From an uncultured Desulfobacteraceae bacterium (GTDB taxonomy: Bacteria > Desulfobacterota > Desulfobacteria > Desulfobacterales > UBA5852): a stretch of 64,000 nt of DNA. Where the stretch lies: the NCBI GenBank assembly GCA_913060875.1, contig CAJXSL010000005.1:1-64000 (forward strand), given 5' to 3'. Numbering within the stretch: position 1 is the stretch's first letter; each line of letters starts with the position of its first letter. Made by a program: the position numbers and the translations under genes. A model generated the notes under the pieces. It was given only the letters and a program-made list of their open reading frames with translations. It was not told the origin of the DNA and did no database searches. This document shows positions 21,174-27,534 of the stretch, one piece after another.

Positions 21174-22364
21174 ATGCCAATCCCCCCCTTTGAACTGGAA
21201 CGCTACTTTGCCCGCTACGAATTCTCCGCCCGCTATCTTCTATCCAGTTCGGACTGCGAAGCCATGGCCATGCAGGACCTCCTGGACATGGCCGATGATA
21301 GCACCCGATCCTTATGGGAGGATTTGAAACTGGGCTACACCGAAAGTGCGGGGCATCCGCTCCTGCGGCAAGCCATTAGCGGAACTTACCCCGGCCTTCA
21401 TTCCGATGATACCCTGGTGGTGACACCCGAGGAAGGGATCTTCCTTGCCATGCACGCCCTGCTCAAACCGGGCGACCATGTTGTCGCCACCTTTCCCGGC
21501 TACCAGTCCCTGTATGAAATTCCCCGGACCATCGGCTGCCGGATGGATTTCTGGAAGCCCGCGGAGGGGCATGAATGGCAATTCGAACTGGACCGTCTGG
21601 AAGCACTTTTGCAACCGGACACCCGACTGGTGGTCGTCAATTTCCCCCACAACCCCACCGGCGCACTGCTGCCGCCGGACACATTTAGATCACTGGTCGA
21701 TCTGCTGCGTCACAGGGGCATTTATCTTTTCAGTGACGAAATGTACCGGCACCTCGAGATCGAGCCCGGCGCCATCCTGCCGGCCGCCTGTGAGGCCTAC
21801 GAAAAAGCGGTGACCCTCTCCGGTCTTTCCAAAGCCTATGGTTTGCCCGGGCTGCGCATCGGCTGGCTGGCCTCCCGGGACCGGGAATTCCTTGCAAGGA
21901 CGGCCCGTCTCAAAGACTACACCACCATCTGCAATAGTGCCCCGAGTGAAGTGTTGGGCATCATAGCCCTGGCCAATCGCCAAACCATCATCAACCGCCA
22001 GCAGGTGCGCATCCGGGCCAACCTGGACGTGCTGGAAACATTCATGGCCGCGCATGGAACGATTTTTCGCTGGAGAAGGCCGGCCGGGGGCTCGATCGGC
22101 TTCCCCGGATTCCTTCGGCCCGAGGGGGCCGAGGCCTTCTGTGAAAGATTGGTGGAACAAGCAGGCATCATGCTGCTGCCGTCAACCCCATTTCAATACG
22201 GCGACAAACACGTGCGCATCGGCTTCGGCCGGGACAACCTGCCGGAGGTGTTGCAGCGGCTGAGCGATTATCTGGCCGGGCTGTCTGGGTATATATCCGG
22301 GCCCGGAGGAACCGGCTTTGGGTTCCCCCTGGAAGGGGGATGCTCCAATCACGAGAAACAATAG
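21174..22364 (+). CDS. PLP-dependent aminotransferase, class I/II, with repeat-encoded C-terminus
   Basis: A 396-residue fold-type I aminotransferase. The PLP lysine is Lys220 in LSGLSKAYGLPGLRIGW. FPHNPTGALL (Asn160), FSDEMYRHLE (Asp188, Tyr191) and the Arg of HVRIGFGR complete the active site. The closest general pattern is that of class I/II enzymes including capreomycidine-synthase-like ones; the substrate is not assignable. Residues ~373-396 (beginning YISGPGG and ending SNHEKQ) are encoded by repeat family B, whose 82-bp unit recurs at 37605-37686. The native enzyme probably ended near SDYLAGLSG. The stop abuts the repeat's hairpin. Confidence 0.85.
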   Translation: MPIPPFELERYFARYEFSARYLLSSSDCEAMAMQDLLDMADDSTRSLWEDLKLGYTESAGHPLLRQAISGTYPGLHSDDTLVVTPEEGIFLAMHALLKPGDHVVATFPGYQSLYEIPRTIGCRMDFWKPAEGHEWQFELDRLEALLQPDTRLVVVNFPHNPTGALLPPDTFRSLVDLLRHRGIYLFSDEMYRHLEIEPGAILPAACEAYEKAVTLSGLSKAYGLPGLRIGWLASRDREFLARTARLKDYTTICNSAPSEVLGIIALANRQTIINRQQVRIRANLDVLETFMAAHGTIFRWRRPAGGSIGFPGFLRPEGAEAFCERLVEQAGIMLLPSTPFQYGDKHVRIGFGRDNLPEVLQRLSDYLAGLSGYISGPGGTGFGFPLEGGCSNHEKQ

Positions 22365-22560
22365 GCGTCAGAAGACAGAATTCAGGAGCCAGAAGGATTT
22401 TGATGTCGCTTCGCTCCGTCTTTTATAAAAGATCGACTGCGCCGAAGGCGAAAACCTTATTCTGAATTCTGGATTCTGACGCCTGAATTCCGATACGACG
22501 ATTACGGCGGAGCCAATTATCTCTGACCTGGCCCAGAGGACCAAGTTTTCTGGACCAAAT
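22289..22560 (+). repeat. Dispersed repeat family B, copy 1
   Basis: Bases 22289-22370 match 37605-37686 nearly base for base, and 22315-22560 match 35151-35347. The middle is an imperfect inverted repeat (22364-22483, arms starting GGCGTCAGAAGACAGAATTC). Relative to the 35.2 kb copy it carries an extra 52 bases (22397-22448) flanked by the direct repeat GAAGG. The element starts inside the aminotransferase coding region and ends 11 bases before the DUF885 start codon. Confidence 0.88.
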
Positions 22561-22571
22561 ACAAAGGGCTT

Positions 22572-24140
22572 ATGACACTGAAGCCATCACATTCATCCAT
22601 AGCCCCTCTGGCCGAAGCCGTTTTCCAGCGGCTGGCCCGGCAGTTTCCGGTGTGCATGGCCAGCGACGAATTCCATTTCTTCCCCCAGGTACGGGCTGAT
22701 CAGAGCGAAGCCGACGTTTGGGATGATTTCTCGCCGGACGCCCTCCAGGCCCTCGACCGCGAGTTGGCGCTGTGGCTCGGGCAACTGGACGATATGGAAA
22801 CCCAGCCGGTCACGCAAGATGACCGTATCGACGCCGATACGTTGAAAACCGCTCTCACTACCCTGCGCGAACAATTGACCGACGTGGGTATGCACCGCAC
22901 CCAGCCCACCTGGTATCTTACCATCCTCGGTATTGGTCTGGCGGAATCCGTGTCCGGGAAGCCGGGCGAGTTCGAGGACCGCCTGCGCAACCTGCCCCGC
23001 TTTCTGGATCAGGCCCGCCAAAACCTCCCGCGGATTCCAAGGCTTTACCGCGATCTCGGGTGCGAGATGGTCCGGGAACTGCTGCCCTGGCTGCAAAACC
23101 TGCCAACCGCTAAACGTCTTCGAACGGCATCCGCGGAAAGTTTGTCGGCCTTCGGCCGGCATCTGGAAACCATCCCCGTAACAGAAGATTTCCTCCCGGA
23201 GCGCGATCTTTACGAGCGCATCGCGCACCGCCACATGCGCTGTGCCATGAGCACCGACGATATCCGGCAGGCCCAGGCGGATGAAATCCAGGAAACCCGA
23301 TCCCGGCTGATCGACCTGAGCCGTCGCCTCGCCCCGGGTTCATCATGGCAGGAAGCCGTGGCAAGCCTGCCGACGGCCACACCATCCCCCGCCGGTATCA
23401 GCGTCTTGTATCAGGAGGCCATCACCGACCTGGCCGCTCATTGTGCCGACCTGGGGCTGGTCACCCCCGCTTTCCTTGAACGCTGTCCGGTGCGGGTCGA
23501 ACCGATCCCGGATTTTATGCAGCCGGTGCGCAGCAACGCCGCCTACAGCATGACGGCGGGCCATCCCCCCCGGGGCGGCACTTTCTACATCATGGAAGCC
23601 GCCCGCAAATCCGCTGCCCCGGTCGATTATCGCCTGCTGACCGCCCATGAAACCTTTCCGGGGCATCACCTGCTGGACAACCGGCGCTGGGAGCAGGCAC
23701 GACCGGTCCGCCGCCATGTGGAGTATCCTCTGTTTTACGAAGGCTGGGCCAGCTTCAGCGAAGAACTGCTGTTCGCGACCGGCTATTTCCACACTCCCAC
23801 CGATCACTTATTGATGGCCAAACGCCGTTTCTGGCGGGCCCTGCGCGGCCGGGTCGACCTGGAGATCCACACGCGCCGCCGCAGTCTGGATCAGGCCGCC
23901 GCGCTGATGACGGCCAACGGCCTGCCGGCCAAACAGGCCAATGCCATGGTCCGGCGTTACGTCCTCAAACCGGGCTATCAACTGGCGTACACCATGGGAC
24001 GGCGACGGTTTAAACGACTTTACGACCGCTGCGGGAAATCACCATCCTCGCCGGCAGAGTTCGCCGCCCGGATTCTATCGGTGGGCGAAATCCCGTTTCA
24101 TCATCTTGAAGCGGCCTTACCCCCCTCGGGGTTGTCTTGA
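22572..24140 (+). CDS. DUF885 family protein (putative metallopeptidase)
   Basis: A 522-residue protein of the DUF885 family, helical and predicted zinc-dependent. The signature HETFPGHHLLD gives His359, Glu360 and His365, and the downstream EGWASFSEELL gives Glu390, the probable third ligand. Length is usual for the family. No signal peptide is evident at the N-terminus, so a cytosolic location is likely. It precedes the ATP-grasp gene on the same strand with an 85-base gap; the possibility that it trims a peptide made by that enzyme is inference. The family B repeat lies directly upstream and must contain or replace its promoter. Confidence 0.82.
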   Translation: MTLKPSHSSIAPLAEAVFQRLARQFPVCMASDEFHFFPQVRADQSEADVWDDFSPDALQALDRELALWLGQLDDMETQPVTQDDRIDADTLKTALTTLREQLTDVGMHRTQPTWYLTILGIGLAESVSGKPGEFEDRLRNLPRFLDQARQNLPRIPRLYRDLGCEMVRELLPWLQNLPTAKRLRTASAESLSAFGRHLETIPVTEDFLPERDLYERIAHRHMRCAMSTDDIRQAQADEIQETRSRLIDLSRRLAPGSSWQEAVASLPTATPSPAGISVLYQEAITDLAAHCADLGLVTPAFLERCPVRVEPIPDFMQPVRSNAAYSMTAGHPPRGGTFYIMEAARKSAAPVDYRLLTAHETFPGHHLLDNRRWEQARPVRRHVEYPLFYEGWASFSEELLFATGYFHTPTDHLLMAKRRFWRALRGRVDLEIHTRRRSLDQAAALMTANGLPAKQANAMVRRYVLKPGYQLAYTMGRRRFKRLYDRCGKSPSSPAEFAARILSVGEIPFHHLEAALPPSGLS

Positions 24141-24225
24141 TACATTTTCAAGGGTAAACTGACGCCAGCAAGCCCGCTTGTGATTCCCAATGCCCTGTCA
24201 GGGCCCAGCCGGCAGGAGGTCATCC

Positions 24226-25617
24226 GTGTCCAGTTTCTTTGGTGCCCATTCGGAATGGAACCTTGGCAGTCCCGGAGGATGGGACTACCAGCGCACGACC
24301 CAGGAGATCGCCCGCGTCGTCTGGGATAAACTCGCTCGCCTAGCCCCCAGCGGTGTGGCCCTGGACTTCGACCACCCCCTCCTCTGTCCGGTGGCAGGGT
24401 TTGTCGACATGCTGGAGGGCGTCCTGCGCCATCGCAGCGGCAGCGATACCGGTCTTGTGGCCGTGGTGGCGGAAGAAGAAACCCTGGACAACGTCACGGA
24501 AAACATCAACCTGGCCCGCCGCCTGGATCGGCTGGAAGGTATTACCGGCATCCTGGCCGCCCCCCATGAATTCGAGCTGCACAAGGGCGTATGCTGCCAT
24601 CAGGGCCGTCCGGTGTCCCTGGTCTTCATGGATTTCAACAACGACGTCTTCCTGAAATTGCACCGCCAGAACGATCTCAGCCCGCTCATGCAGGCCATCC
24701 GGGAAAACCGGGTTCTCAATCCCAGGGGCACCGAGCCGATCAACGTCAAAAGCATGTTCGAAGTCATCACGGGCGAGCATGCCCATCGCTTCGATCCCGA
24801 AACGGTTCGCCGCACCCCCTGGACCCGTCGTTTCTTCCCCCGCAGGACCATTGGGCCGCAGGGGGAATCCATCCCGGATCTGGTGGAATGGGCCCGACAT
24901 AACTGGGACGACCTGGTGCTGAAACCCGAACGGGGCTATTCGGGTATCGGCGTCAAGGTCGGTGGCGTCAACCCCGATGCCGACGCCGCCATTGCCCAGG
25001 CCCTGGATAAGGGCGGCTATATCCTGCAAGCCAAGGTGCCCCTTCCCCTTTGGGCGGAAACCATGGTGGAAATCGACCATGCCGCCCAACAGGCGATTGC
25101 CGTCCCGCGCCAGACCGATTTCCGCTGTCTGGTGGGGCCGGACCGCACTTTCGGCTTCCTGTGCCGCTATGGCGATGTGCCCACCAATGTGGGCAGCGGC
25201 GGCGGGGTGCAGCCCCTGGCCGTCCTGCAATCCGACATGACCGTCAAAGAGGCCGTCGACCGGATCAACGACAGCATCATGGGCATCGATTATGCCGATC
25301 TGGCCGAAGTGGAAGCACAGCAGCACGCCCTGGCCCTGGCGGAAAAATTCACCTATCTGCTGGGCCCCATCAAAATCGCCCTGCGCCCGCGCATCGTCAC
25401 CCGGGAACAAATCCATGACCTGAAACGCTATGGCACGGCCATGTGGAACGACAGCCGGCAACTGGAGAACATGTGGATGGCCGGCGAAATCGACGACTAC
25501 ATCACCATCGAACCCGAGGAGCTGGCCATCGCCCGCCTGCAGCCCTGGAAAGGCGGCCCCGCCATATTTGCAGCGGATGGTTTGTTCAGCTTCGGCGCGC
25601 ACCCGGAGGCGTCATGA
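24226..25617 (+). CDS. Circularly permuted ATP-grasp-like ligase
   Basis: A 463-residue protein not assignable to a characterised family. The second half carries the ATP-grasp-like motif DLVLKPERGYSGIGVKVGG (nucleotide-binding Lys plus glycine loop). Before it, INVKSMFEVITGEHAHRF and RTPWTRRFF resemble the KxLF and PWT elements of circularly permuted ATP-grasp enzymes (peptide and glutathionylspermidine synthetase-like). VGSGGGVQPLAVL near residue 325 is a likely active-site loop. Start is GTG 24226, with GGAGG six bases upstream. Its stop overlaps the methyltransferase start as ATGA, so the two proteins are translationally coupled and probably work on one product. An ATP-dependent amide- or peptide-bond ligase is the best guess. 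Confidence 0.6.
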   Translation: MSSFFGAHSEWNLGSPGGWDYQRTTQEIARVVWDKLARLAPSGVALDFDHPLLCPVAGFVDMLEGVLRHRSGSDTGLVAVVAEEETLDNVTENINLARRLDRLEGITGILAAPHEFELHKGVCCHQGRPVSLVFMDFNNDVFLKLHRQNDLSPLMQAIRENRVLNPRGTEPINVKSMFEVITGEHAHRFDPETVRRTPWTRRFFPRRTIGPQGESIPDLVEWARHNWDDLVLKPERGYSGIGVKVGGVNPDADAAIAQALDKGGYILQAKVPLPLWAETMVEIDHAAQQAIAVPRQTDFRCLVGPDRTFGFLCRYGDVPTNVGSGGGVQPLAVLQSDMTVKEAVDRINDSIMGIDYADLAEVEAQQHALALAEKFTYLLGPIKIALRPRIVTREQIHDLKRYGTAMWNDSRQLENMWMAGEIDDYITIEPEELAIARLQPWKGGPAIFAADGLFSFGAHPEAS

Positions 25618-26396
25618 CAATAGCCGTGGAACCCGACTGGTGGAAAACCCTCTTTGACGACATCTATCTTGTCACGGATGCCCGCACCGTGCGGGATGAT
25701 GCCCGCACCCGCCGTGAGATCGATCTCTTCAGCCGCCTGGTTCCGGTGGAAGCCGTGCATCGGGTCCTCGACCTTTGCGGGGGCCACGGGCGCCATACCC
25801 TCGAGTTGAAGCGCAGGGGCTGCGGCCCCTGCACTGTTCTGGATTACAGCCGGGTGCTCCTGGCGGAAGGCCATCAAACCGCCACCGAGGAAAACCTGCC
25901 CGTCGCCTTCATCCAGGGCGATGCCCGCTTCACCCCCCTGGCATCGGGCGCCTTCGACATCGTCCTGATTCTGGGCAACTCCCTGGGCTATCTGGCCGAT
26001 GAGGATGCTGACCTGCACATCCTCCAGGAAAGCCGGCGCCTGTTGGCCCCGGGCGGCCGCCTTTTGGTGGACGTCATGAATGGTGCCGCCGTACGACAAA
26101 ACCTGGCTCCCAACGCCTGGCATGAAATCGGCCCTGATGTGGTGGTCTGCCGCCAGCGGGAAATCCGGGGAAACCGGGTCTGCGCCCGGGAACTGGTCAT
26201 CAGCAAAGCCCGTGGCACCATCCGGGACGAAACCTACGGTATCCGCCTGTACGAACCCCGCCAATTGAGCGATCTGGTACACCGTGCCGGCTTTGCCGAT
26301 ATCCGGATCACCACCGATCAATCCGACCTTCATTCCCGGGAAGACCGCGGCTGCATGAATCACCGTCTGGTCGTCGATGCCCGCAAACCGGCTTGA
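25614..26396 (+). CDS. Class I SAM-dependent methyltransferase coupled to ATP-grasp protein
   Basis: A 260-residue methyltransferase. Motif I is VLDLCGGHGRHTLELK, with a ribose-binding Asp in VLDYSRVLLAEG. IQGDARFTPL, FDIVLILGNSLGYL and LLAPGGRLLVDVM follow in order. The C-terminal half (IRLYEPRQLSDLVHRAGFADI) is the usual substrate-side cap. The ATG overlaps the stop of the preceding ATP-grasp gene (ATGA), strong evidence for coordinated translation. It may methylate the ATP-grasp product, or the ATP-grasp enzyme may ligate a methylated acid; the order cannot be told. It ends the pair, and a separate promoter candidate lies before the next gene. Confidence 0.82.
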   Translation: MTIAVEPDWWKTLFDDIYLVTDARTVRDDARTRREIDLFSRLVPVEAVHRVLDLCGGHGRHTLELKRRGCGPCTVLDYSRVLLAEGHQTATEENLPVAFIQGDARFTPLASGAFDIVLILGNSLGYLADEDADLHILQESRRLLAPGGRLLVDVMNGAAVRQNLAPNAWHEIGPDVVVCRQREIRGNRVCARELVISKARGTIRDETYGIRLYEPRQLSDLVHRAGFADIRITTDQSDLHSREDRGCMNHRLVVDARKPA

Positions 26397-26464
26397 TCGT
26401 CGCCCATAGCTTTGGCCGAAGCCCTCCCAAGCCTCTTTTTTCAACCTTCCCTTCCATCTGCCGC

Positions 26465-26492
26465 TTGGCAAATTTATTCAGTGTGATATAGA
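26465..26492 (+). promoter_or_regulatory. Candidate sigma-70 promoter for the SBF-like carrier
   Basis: TTGGCA (26465-26470) and TATAGA (26487-26492) are separated by 16 bases, within the sigma-70 range, and lie 44 bases before the start codon at 26536. This would separate the carrier from the ATP-grasp/methyltransferase transcript, although read-through is possible. Confidence 0.5.
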
Positions 26493-26535
26493 AACTTTTT
26501 GGTCAATTTCCCATTGAATCGCAGGAGAACGTGCT

Positions 26536-27534
26536 GTGGCAGCTTATCTGAAAAAATACTGGTTCTTCGTCGGTATTGCCGTTGTGGTGACCATCGCCTT
26601 TGCCTTCCCGGCGGTGGGGGTCTTCGTCAAAACCCATCACATTTTAACGGTGGTCATCTTTGTGGGGTTCCTCATCACCGGACTGACCCTGGATACGGCC
26701 AGTATCGGCGAGCAGTTAAAAAATATCCGCGTACTGTCGGCCGCCCTGATATCGTCCCTGGTCCTCTTTCCGGTCATCGCCTATTACCTGGCCAACATGA
26801 TCTTCGACACCCCCCCGGACCTGGCCATTGGTGTCCTGATCATCGGGGTGGCGCCGGTGACCATTGCCTCCGGCACGGTGATGACCGCCATTGCCCTGGG
26901 CAATGTCCCCCTGAGCCTTTTCATCTGCGTTCTGGGCAACTTGGCGTCCATCGTCACGATCCCGTTTCTGCTCAATTTGTTTCTCCAATTCGGCGACGCG
27001 CCCATCACCCTGCCGGTGGTCCAGATGCTGACCGGCCTGACCATCAAGGTGCTCGTGCCCACCGCCATCGGCCAGGTATTGCGTCCCTTCTTGAAGGATG
27101 CCATTGCGCCCTACAAAAAGATCTTTTCCATTTTCAATCAACTCATCGTGCTGATGATCGTTCTCAATGCCGTGTCCAGCTCGACGGCCCGCATCATCGA
27201 GGCCGGCAGCGCCATCATCGGGGTTTTCGTTTTCATGATCTTTCTGCACGTCCTGATCCTGGCCCTGAATTTCGGTCTTTCCCGCCTGATTCGACTCGAC
27301 CGGGCCGCCACTTCGGCGTTCACGATCCACACATCCCAGAAAACCCTGACCATTTCCTACATCGTATGGGCCGGCCACTTTGCCGCCCTCTACCCCATGG
27401 CCTTGGTTCCGGGCATCGCCTATCATATTACCCAGAGCATCATGGATACCCTGGTGGCCCATCGTTTCCGTGAGCGGATGGAACGTCATCACCATTCGGG
27501 AGCCGATGCCGGTTCCCCGGTCAAGTCATCGTAG
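26536..27534 (+). CDS. SBF-like (bile acid:sodium symporter family) membrane carrier
   Basis: A 332-residue inner-membrane protein with about ten hydrophobic segments and the SBF-like/YfeH pattern. FVGFLITGLTLDTASIGEQLKN at the first repeat, IGVAPVTIASGTVMTAIALGN in the crossing region and HTSQKTLTISYIVWAG near the end are the family landmarks. GTG 26536 is the start, with AGGAG upstream; GTG 26530 in the same frame is equally near. Substrates of YfeH-type carriers are not established. Its place after the ATP-grasp/methyltransferase pair makes it a candidate exporter or importer for that product, an inference only. Confidence 0.8.
   Translation: MAAYLKKYWFFVGIAVVVTIAFAFPAVGVFVKTHHILTVVIFVGFLITGLTLDTASIGEQLKNIRVLSAALISSLVLFPVIAYYLANMIFDTPPDLAIGVLIIGVAPVTIASGTVMTAIALGNVPLSLFICVLGNLASIVTIPFLLNLFLQFGDAPITLPVVQMLTGLTIKVLVPTAIGQVLRPFLKDAIAPYKKIFSIFNQLIVLMIVLNAVSSSTARIIEAGSAIIGVFVFMIFLHVLILALNFGLSRLIRLDRAATSAFTIHTSQKTLTISYIVWAGHFAALYPMALVPGIAYHITQSIMDTLVAHRFRERMERHHHSGADAGSPVKSS

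Follow-up and report, generated by a model that had tools for sequence, protein, structure and literature searches.

What would a bacterium make with a ligase, a methyltransferase and a putative metallopeptidase that are encoded side by side? The question is raised by the window, a 64,000-nucleotide stretch of DNA (assembly GCA_913060875.1, contig CAJXSL010000005.1, positions 1 to 64,000) from the 5.88-Mb genome of an uncultured Desulfobacteraceae bacterium. The forward strand of the window encodes a DUF885 hydrolase, an ATP-grasp ligase with a predicted circularly permuted fold, and a methyltransferase predicted to use S-adenosylmethionine (SAM). The three-gene operon is real and conserved among sulfate reducers and related bacteria, and its ligase belongs to a family that has no Pfam or NCBIfam model. 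We propose, and give the proposal an even chance of being correct, that the cassette is one inherited unit whose enzymes carry out a make-methylate-cleave cycle. The compound in question would be a small amide, probably a dipeptide or an amino-acid conjugate.

Layout of the operon

The metallopeptidase-like DUF885 protein (PF05960) is 522 amino acids long and is encoded at positions 22572–24140. It matches its family with an E value of 1.1e-52 and 180.8 bits, compared with a cut-off of 32.4. A spacer of 85 bp separates it from the ligase gene at 24226–25617, which starts with GTG and encodes 463 amino acids. The longest open reading frame of the ligase gene is 24190–25617; the GTG at 24226, chosen in the initial annotation, is the better start because it follows an AGGAGG ribosome-binding site at 24214–24219 and because 463 amino acids is the commonest length among the listed relatives. 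Bases 25614–25617 read ATGA, so that the stop codon of the ligase gene and the start codon of the methyltransferase gene overlap, and the coupling of the two genes postulated earlier holds. The class I methyltransferase, a relative of NmbA, has 260 amino acids (Methyltransf_25, E = 9.4e-17). Its gene begins with the ATG at 25614, is preceded by GGAGG at 25605–25609, and ends with the stop codon at 26396. The four-base overlap is present in 17 of 58 relatives' loci, a count that is based on open reading frames with the longest start and changes with other choices of start. The predicted promoters and terminators in 22350–26560 are no more numerous than expected by chance. The window and 12 related loci contain no riboswitch or other product-revealing RNA, and two tRNAs are the sole matches.

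Conservation and distribution

Relatives of the ligase were collected in one pattern scan of 84,980 species, each represented by a single genome; the scan picks up close relatives and yielded 68 loci. Sixteen further strong ligase loci from genomes of the window's phylum and the window itself bring the set to 85, or 83 after the removal of two duplicates. Since the loci were selected by ligase similarity, the linkage counts describe the context of the ligase. In non-redundant loci with room for the respective neighbor, the methyltransferase gene lies directly downstream of the ligase gene in 68 of 71 cases and the DUF885 gene directly upstream in 68 of 72; both are adjacent in 56 of the 61 loci with room on both sides. 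The methyltransferase gene is split over two open reading frames in L067, and it is missing despite room from L124 and from L080, where the ligase match covers only 237 residues. Unlinked ligase and methyltransferase genes, which the initial annotation had regarded as an argument against a joint pathway, were thus not seen, and DUF885 keeps its place in the gene set.

Clustering of the open reading frames of 69 loci revealed no fourth conserved gene: apart from shadow open reading frames, the other groups reach no more than 10, 7 and 6 loci. The two largest are scattered in position and occur on both strands, and the third, located downstream, encodes a ketoacyl synthase III, a name that comes from reading the sequence. 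The immediate neighbors of the three-gene core are co-directional with it in 30 of 60 loci downstream and 30 of 56 upstream, and the flanking genes vary between loci. In 58 loci, the 1-kb flanks contain no widely shared small open reading frame (20–120 amino acids) that could encode a ribosomal precursor; among the best six similarity groups per flank, the largest span three loci upstream and four downstream, a comparison that fast-changing or distant precursors would escape.

Two more forward-strand genes of the window had been included in the initial annotation: an aminotransferase gene at 21174–22364, 207 bp before the DUF885 gene, and a gene for an SBF-like carrier (SBF_like) at 26536–27534, 139 bp after the methyltransferase gene. 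Searching 68 related loci with tblastn at E 1e-8 gave no match to the carrier, many of the loci being short, and two weak partial matches to the aminotransferase (27% over 145 residues and 25% over 247). The proposed order of DUF885, ligase and methyltransferase genes stands, and that of the flanking genes does not; because the aminotransferase, the carrier and the other neighbors are not conserved, the five-gene pathway is reduced to three genes. For the same reason, the suggested membrane transport step is without comparative support. The best named relatives of the window aminotransferase are PRK07324, the capreomycidine synthase VioD and the guanitoxin enzyme GntC, all well under their cut-offs.

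The median pairwise identity among 58 loci is 62% for the ligase, 50% for the methyltransferase and 31% for the DUF885 protein. Divergence of the ligase correlates with that of the methyltransferase (Pearson 0.73) and of DUF885 (0.54), coefficients that carry no control for shared descent and are not used as evidence. One genome (G033) combines an intact ligase gene (L010) with two broken-looking copies on another contig (L012 and L013), one of which has three in-frame stops, whereas the other is frame-split and has a DUF885 gene upstream.

Most ligase records are metagenome bins, and their taxonomic placement was taken from the titles: 34 of the 68 bear Desulfo- names, among them that of the operon-positive isolate Desulfospira joergensenii, 18 name only Deltaproteobacteria, two Aquificota, one Aminicenantes and one Spirochaetota. 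The ligase profile matches 24 genomes in an even draw of 395 from the window's phylum, or 20 after the removal of four distant matches (E from 7e-27 to 2.5e-20), and has no match on plasmid records. The searches for DUF885, BshC, GCS2 and the methyltransferase each covered 118 genomes of the phylum; the draws are taken as identical by their handles, the full list being that of the methyltransferase search. Eight of the 118 genomes are strongly ligase-positive, including G172, in which the ligase is cut by the contig end. DUF885 is rare in the phylum and tracks the ligase: it matches in nine of the genomes, seven of them ligase-positive, the remaining two being G061 with a stand-alone copy and G093 with a match below the cut-off.

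Predicted structure of the ligase

Neither Pfam nor NCBIfam has a model that matches the window ligase. Its sole matches among PDB sequences are three MotB chains with E values of 0.47–0.68, and the profile of its family has no match there. Membership of a characterized synthetase family, a possibility raised by the initial annotation, was thus not seen. CP_ATPgrasp_1 and CP_ATPgrasp_2 (PF04174 and PF14403) do not match the window ligase, and two of 46 relatives match PF14403, the best with an E value of 0.0015. A YgiC-type synthetase was considered and rejected, since GSP_synth (PF03738) has no match in the window's own genome and an hhalign comparison of the ligase profile with seven PF03738 members of the YgiC type gave a probability of 0.1%. 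The same profile matches four distant permuted ATP-grasps with a probability of 99.8% (E = 8e-28). These four proteins (L108–L111) are about 475–490 amino acids long, contain ExN-GG motifs and fall below every Pfam cut-off; neither a methyltransferase nor a DUF885 gene was found beside them in the 14–15 kb fetched.

The AlphaFold2 model of the ligase has a predicted local distance difference test score (pLDDT) of 88 and a predicted template modeling score of 0.87. Its best VIA matches are (homo)glutathione synthetases (Z 15.2, root-mean-square deviation 3.9 over 293 residues), followed by YgiC (Z 14.3), Mfla_0391 (13.1) and glutathionylspermidine synthetase (12.9). Lower Z scores, between 11.6 and 10, belong to RimK, bacterial glutathione synthetase, Ddl and tubulin tyrosine ligase; a family missing from the VIA lists is not discounted on that ground. 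With Foldseek alone, RimK takes first place and homoglutathione synthetase third. The predicted fold, like the profile match, is that of the circularly permuted ATP-grasp group, which upholds the term "permuted" used earlier.

Ligase residues are numbered according to alignment A1, whose first residue corresponds to the codon at 24229. Residues E9, N11, R166, K174, K232, G236, Y237, G239, G241, R299 and N320 are invariant in all 58 loci. The protein does contain the motif LKPERGYSGIGVKVGG pointed out in the initial annotation; the K, G, Y, G and G of the motif are the residues at positions 232, 236, 237, 239 and 241, and its E is kept in 44 of 58 loci. The E9-W-N11 element is located near the N terminus, as expected of a permuted ATP-grasp, in which the ExN strand comes ahead of the substrate domain and the glycine-rich loop. 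N11 and the GG that follows align with the N and GG of the distant permuted ATP-grasps; the pairing of E9 is our own reading, because E9 is shifted by a gap in the profile alignment. The element presumably sits where permuted enzymes carry the magnesium-binding ExN, and we take its role in binding magnesium to be the same. Residues 335–462, with many invariant positions, extend beyond the glutathione-synthetase alignments, and RimK-type rows reach residue 456.

Predicted structure and origin of the DUF885 hydrolase

The model of the DUF885 protein (pLDDT 92.5) is closest to three DUF885 crystal structures (Z 30–31), which are titled "unknown function" or putative lipoproteins. Its similarity to M3 oligoendopeptidase (Z 15.7), M32 peptidase (15.3) and angiotensin-converting enzyme (ACE, 13.7) falls within a range of 11–16 that includes ACE2. 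The predicted fold is that of the M3/M32/ACE zinc peptidases. In passages of PMC12572635, DUF885 is assigned to a zinc-peptidase clan, and a zinc site is predicted in one member. The protein contains the motifs H359-E-x-x-P-G-H365 and Y-E390-G-W-A. All 58 loci keep H359, E360, G364, H365 and E390. H359 and H365 are separated by six positions, compared with four between the histidines of the HExxH motif of M3, M32 and ACE, and the invariant E390 lies downstream. The protein is probably cytosolic, as no signal peptide is apparent in its N terminus read by eye.

An unrooted tree was built from 58 operon and 10 outside DUF885 sequences, one from G061 and nine from plasmid records. A 100/100 branch separates all operon copies from the outside sequences, of which L152 has a very long branch. 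This separate lineage fits one origin of the operon DUF885 proteins, even though they are the fastest-changing of the three. Repeated recruitment of different DUF885 proteins, suspected from identity classes, is unsupported by the tree.

The methyltransferase subfamily and its fusion to another ATP-grasp

The best PDB match of the methyltransferase profile (A2) is 9ri2, with an E value of 1.3e-29 and 106 bits, followed by an unnamed methyltransferase with 64 bits and by glycine/sarcosine N-methyltransferases with 63 bits. Passages of PMC12719100 identify 9RI2 as CtNmbA and describe NmbA as methylating the cysteine nitrogen of bacillithiol. The named PDB relatives are largely small-molecule enzymes, and some act on peptide, RNA or other substrates. 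Bacillithiol is unlikely to be the substrate here because BshC is found in no ligase-positive genome; its one match among the 118 genomes is in the ligase-negative G075, BshA and BshB lying outside the search.

Three strong matches of the methyltransferase profile occur in ligase-negative genomes among the 118: G125, G105 and G153. The G125 gene is located at a contig start, and its upstream gene is cut away. In G153 (L169:6939–8639), two SET-domain genes directly precede the methyltransferase gene of the operon's subfamily, and no ATP-grasp gene is beside it. The G105 match is part of a 705-codon frame that encodes a fusion of the methyltransferase with an ATP-grasp resembling Ddl (PF07478, E = 3.7e-27). 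Full-length fusions of this kind are present in nine of the 395 phylum genomes (L168:8471–10582 and L192–L199). Profile scores are 282 bits for G105, 245 for G153 and 96 for the next match, in G155, and all nine fusions have E values of at most 1.2e-81; by these scores, the fusion methyltransferases belong to the subfamily of the operon enzyme. No plasmid record covers 80% of the fusion, and the 15 of 679 matches listed cover it only from residue 349 onward.

An unrooted tree of the methyltransferases included 58 operon and nine fusion sequences, that of G153, an NmbA fragment and one other outgroup. The operon methyltransferases form one group (support 98/91) and the fusion methyltransferases another (98/95), which the G153 sequence adjoins. 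The NmbA fragment and the other outgroup join the fusion side weakly (80/31) on long branches. Mutual exclusion of the operon (24 of 395 genomes) and the fusion (nine of 395) was considered; the overlap of zero is uninformative because less than one shared genome is expected by chance.

In L193 and L194, a gene for an M32 carboxypeptidase (PF02074, E about 1e-165) directly follows the fusion gene, after about 200 bp in L193 and with an overlap in L194 if the longest open reading frame is taken. None was found beside the other seven fusion loci within the stretch fetched. The combination of a methyltransferase, an ATP-grasp and an M3/M32-fold peptidase recurs here with another ligase type and another peptidase family.

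Ddl-like ATP-grasps were also observed in L200:2880–9780, together with a deoxyhypusine synthase, a pyruvoyl-dependent arginine decarboxylase (Pfam) and a small methyltransferase. L203:5628–9486 resembles this cluster by reading, and the cluster may be a polyamine-conjugate pathway.

Proposed function of the cassette

The amine-type methyltransferase, the seemingly cytosolic peptidase and the amide-forming reactions of related ATP-grasps make a small amide that is formed, N-methylated and cleaved the simplest reading. Permuted and Ddl-type ATP-grasps form an acyl phosphate, which is then transferred to an amine. In the first step, the ligase with Mg-ATP would convert a carboxylate to an acyl phosphate and link it to another small molecule through the latter's amine. 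The SAM methyltransferase would N-methylate the conjugate, or one half of it, at an amine. The DUF885 hydrolase would cleave the amide for turnover, for recycling, or to remove an unmethylated or wrong product. Methylation could protect the product from cleavage, as it does in anserine. The analysis establishes the three-gene unit, the separate DUF885 and methyltransferase lineages, the folds as predicted and the conservation of the active-site motifs; we infer the ligase and N-methyltransferase activities, the order of the steps and the direction of the hydrolase. The product might serve as a buffer or scavenger, a compatible solute, a redox compound or a signal. Literature searches of open-licence scope turned up no named system with this gene set, as the initial annotation had stated, and nothing that joins DUF885 with an ATP-grasp; older surveys of ATP-grasp amidoligases may mention the family.

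Several observations weigh against the proposed cycle. The substrates and activities of all three proteins are predicted from sequence and models. N-methylation is suggested by remote relatives of the methyltransferase, and other PDB relatives methylate oxygen or carbon. The approximately 125 C-terminal residues of the ligase not covered by the synthetase alignments could alter its chemistry. The DUF885 protein may have a looser tie to the pathway, as it diverges fastest, is detached from the ligase in two loci (by 1.8 kb in L049 and 3.7 kb in L126), and was not found beside the ligase in L045 and L081 despite room. The tree does not show the operon and fusion methyltransferases to be sisters, because the outgroups fall weakly on the fusion side. 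The link to M32 counts as one event, since L193 and L194 both belong to family f68.

It is unlikely that the cassette instead modifies a protein or peptide, with the ATP-grasp adding an amino acid to a protein tail in the manner of RimK or tubulin tyrosine ligase, the methyltransferase capping it and the DUF885 protein removing it. A ligase with a trimming peptidase is a known pattern of tail modification; the structural matches of the ligase include RimK, MdnC and tubulin tyrosine ligase, RimK-type rows, in contrast to those of glutathione synthetase, reach the C terminus of its model, and the M32/ACE-like fold of the hydrolase suits a carboxypeptidase. However, the best VIA matches are permuted small-molecule ligases, although Foldseek favors RimK, and the named relatives of the methyltransferase mostly act on small molecules. 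The loci also lack a further conserved partner gene and a shared small open reading frame in the flanks, the part of the genome searched for a substrate.

Less probable again is that the glutathione-synthetase-like ligase and the NmbA-like methyltransferase produce a low-molecular-weight thiol, namely an N-methylated cysteine peptide, in anaerobes that lack both glutathione and bacillithiol. The nearest fold of the ligase, that of eukaryotic glutathione synthetase, and the nearest relative of the methyltransferase agree with such a product, but none of the operon's steps is an obvious source of a cysteine conjugate, and a ligase in 20 of 395 genomes is sparse for a housekeeping thiol. GCS2, the gamma-glutamylcysteine ligase family, is present in 12 of the 118 genomes, including two of the eight ligase-positive ones (G058 and G133), and absent from the window's genome, which argues against gamma-Glu-Cys and glycine as ligase substrates. 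Together with the single, ligase-negative BshC genome, this phyletic pattern leaves a glutathione or bacillithiol branch unsupported.

We see a slim chance that the cassette makes a compatible solute, an N-methylated dipeptide osmolyte that DUF885 degrades on downshift. Such degradation is known from peptide osmolyte systems, and the glycine/sarcosine N-methyltransferases among the relatives of the methyltransferase are enzymes of glycine betaine synthesis. Several hosts are marine or from soda lakes according to record titles; one is from a bog (L074), uneven sampling may explain the bias toward marine hosts, and no salt-linked neighbor gene is conserved. A five-gene pathway that makes and exports a small molecule with the aminotransferase and the SBF-like carrier is very improbable, since the location of the five genes on one strand within 6.4 kb is outweighed by the gaps on both sides of the core, the varying flanking genes and the tblastn results, which largely refute it.

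If the make-methylate-cleave cycle is real, these bacteria, which live in sediments, symbioses and other anoxic settings, produce a methylated metabolite not known so far, and the methyltransferase-Ddl fusion suggests a second form of the pathway, with another ligase. DUF885, a family of unknown function, gains a defined set of partners and a candidate substrate, the product of the ligase. The ligase itself is a conserved family for which no sequence relative was found in Pfam, NCBIfam or the PDB. It is possible, if doubtful, that anaerobes of the phylum run an unrecognized dipeptide cycle analogous to that of carnosine and anserine, assembled at least twice around one methyltransferase subfamily: with the permuted ATP-grasp and DUF885, and as the Ddl-methyltransferase fusion, with M32 in one family. 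The product would then be a new class of methylated metabolite.

Comparison with known systems

The eukaryotic glutathione and homoglutathione synthetases share the permuted ATP-grasp fold predicted for the ligase (VIA Z about 15, with about 300 residues aligned). The ligase differs from them in its sequence (about 9–15% identity), in the lack of a Pfam match and in its own C-terminal region. We know of no DUF885 or methyltransferase partner of eukaryotic glutathione synthetase. Glutathionylspermidine synthetase/amidase and YgiC/YjfC (PF03738) also have the permuted fold, but have no profile similarity to the ligase and no PF03738 counterpart in the window's genome. The amidase of the glutathionylspermidine enzyme is not known to be a DUF885 protein. 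That enzyme unites an amide ligase with an amidase (title of 2io8, among others), which the operon may do in separate genes.

According to passages of PMC12568646, YgiC and YjfC are peptidylpolyamine synthetases, and Cp1B of the fungal E-64 pathway forms a pseudodipeptide. Like the ligase, Cp1B is an ATP-grasp without a Pfam match and belongs to the same fold group (9cjn, Z 10.9); it is fungal, has other partners and was compared with the ligase by fold. N-methyl-bacillithiol synthase NmbA is the closest solved relative of the methyltransferase, whereas BshC, which bacillithiol synthesis requires, was not found in any ligase-positive genome of the 118. The fusions resemble the operon in coupling the same methyltransferase subfamily to an ATP-grasp, with M32 beside two of nine, and differ from it in that their ligase is of the non-permuted D-Ala-D-Ala-ligase type.

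In the carnosine system of vertebrates, an ATP-grasp synthase, a SAM N-methyltransferase and metal-dependent dipeptidases act on one dipeptide (passages of PMC3660329 and PMC6271292), and both carnosinases cleave carnosine far better than methylated anserine (passages of PMC3660329). The operon would share with it the combination of ligase, N-methyltransferase and peptidase, suggested here by predicted folds and gene linkage. The vertebrate genes do not form one operon, the carnosinases are M20 peptidases rather than DUF885 proteins, and beta-alanine and histidine are not implied as substrates of the operon. The parallel is one of analogy, not homology, and carnosine and anserine appear to be the closest functional counterpart of the cycle proposed for the cassette.

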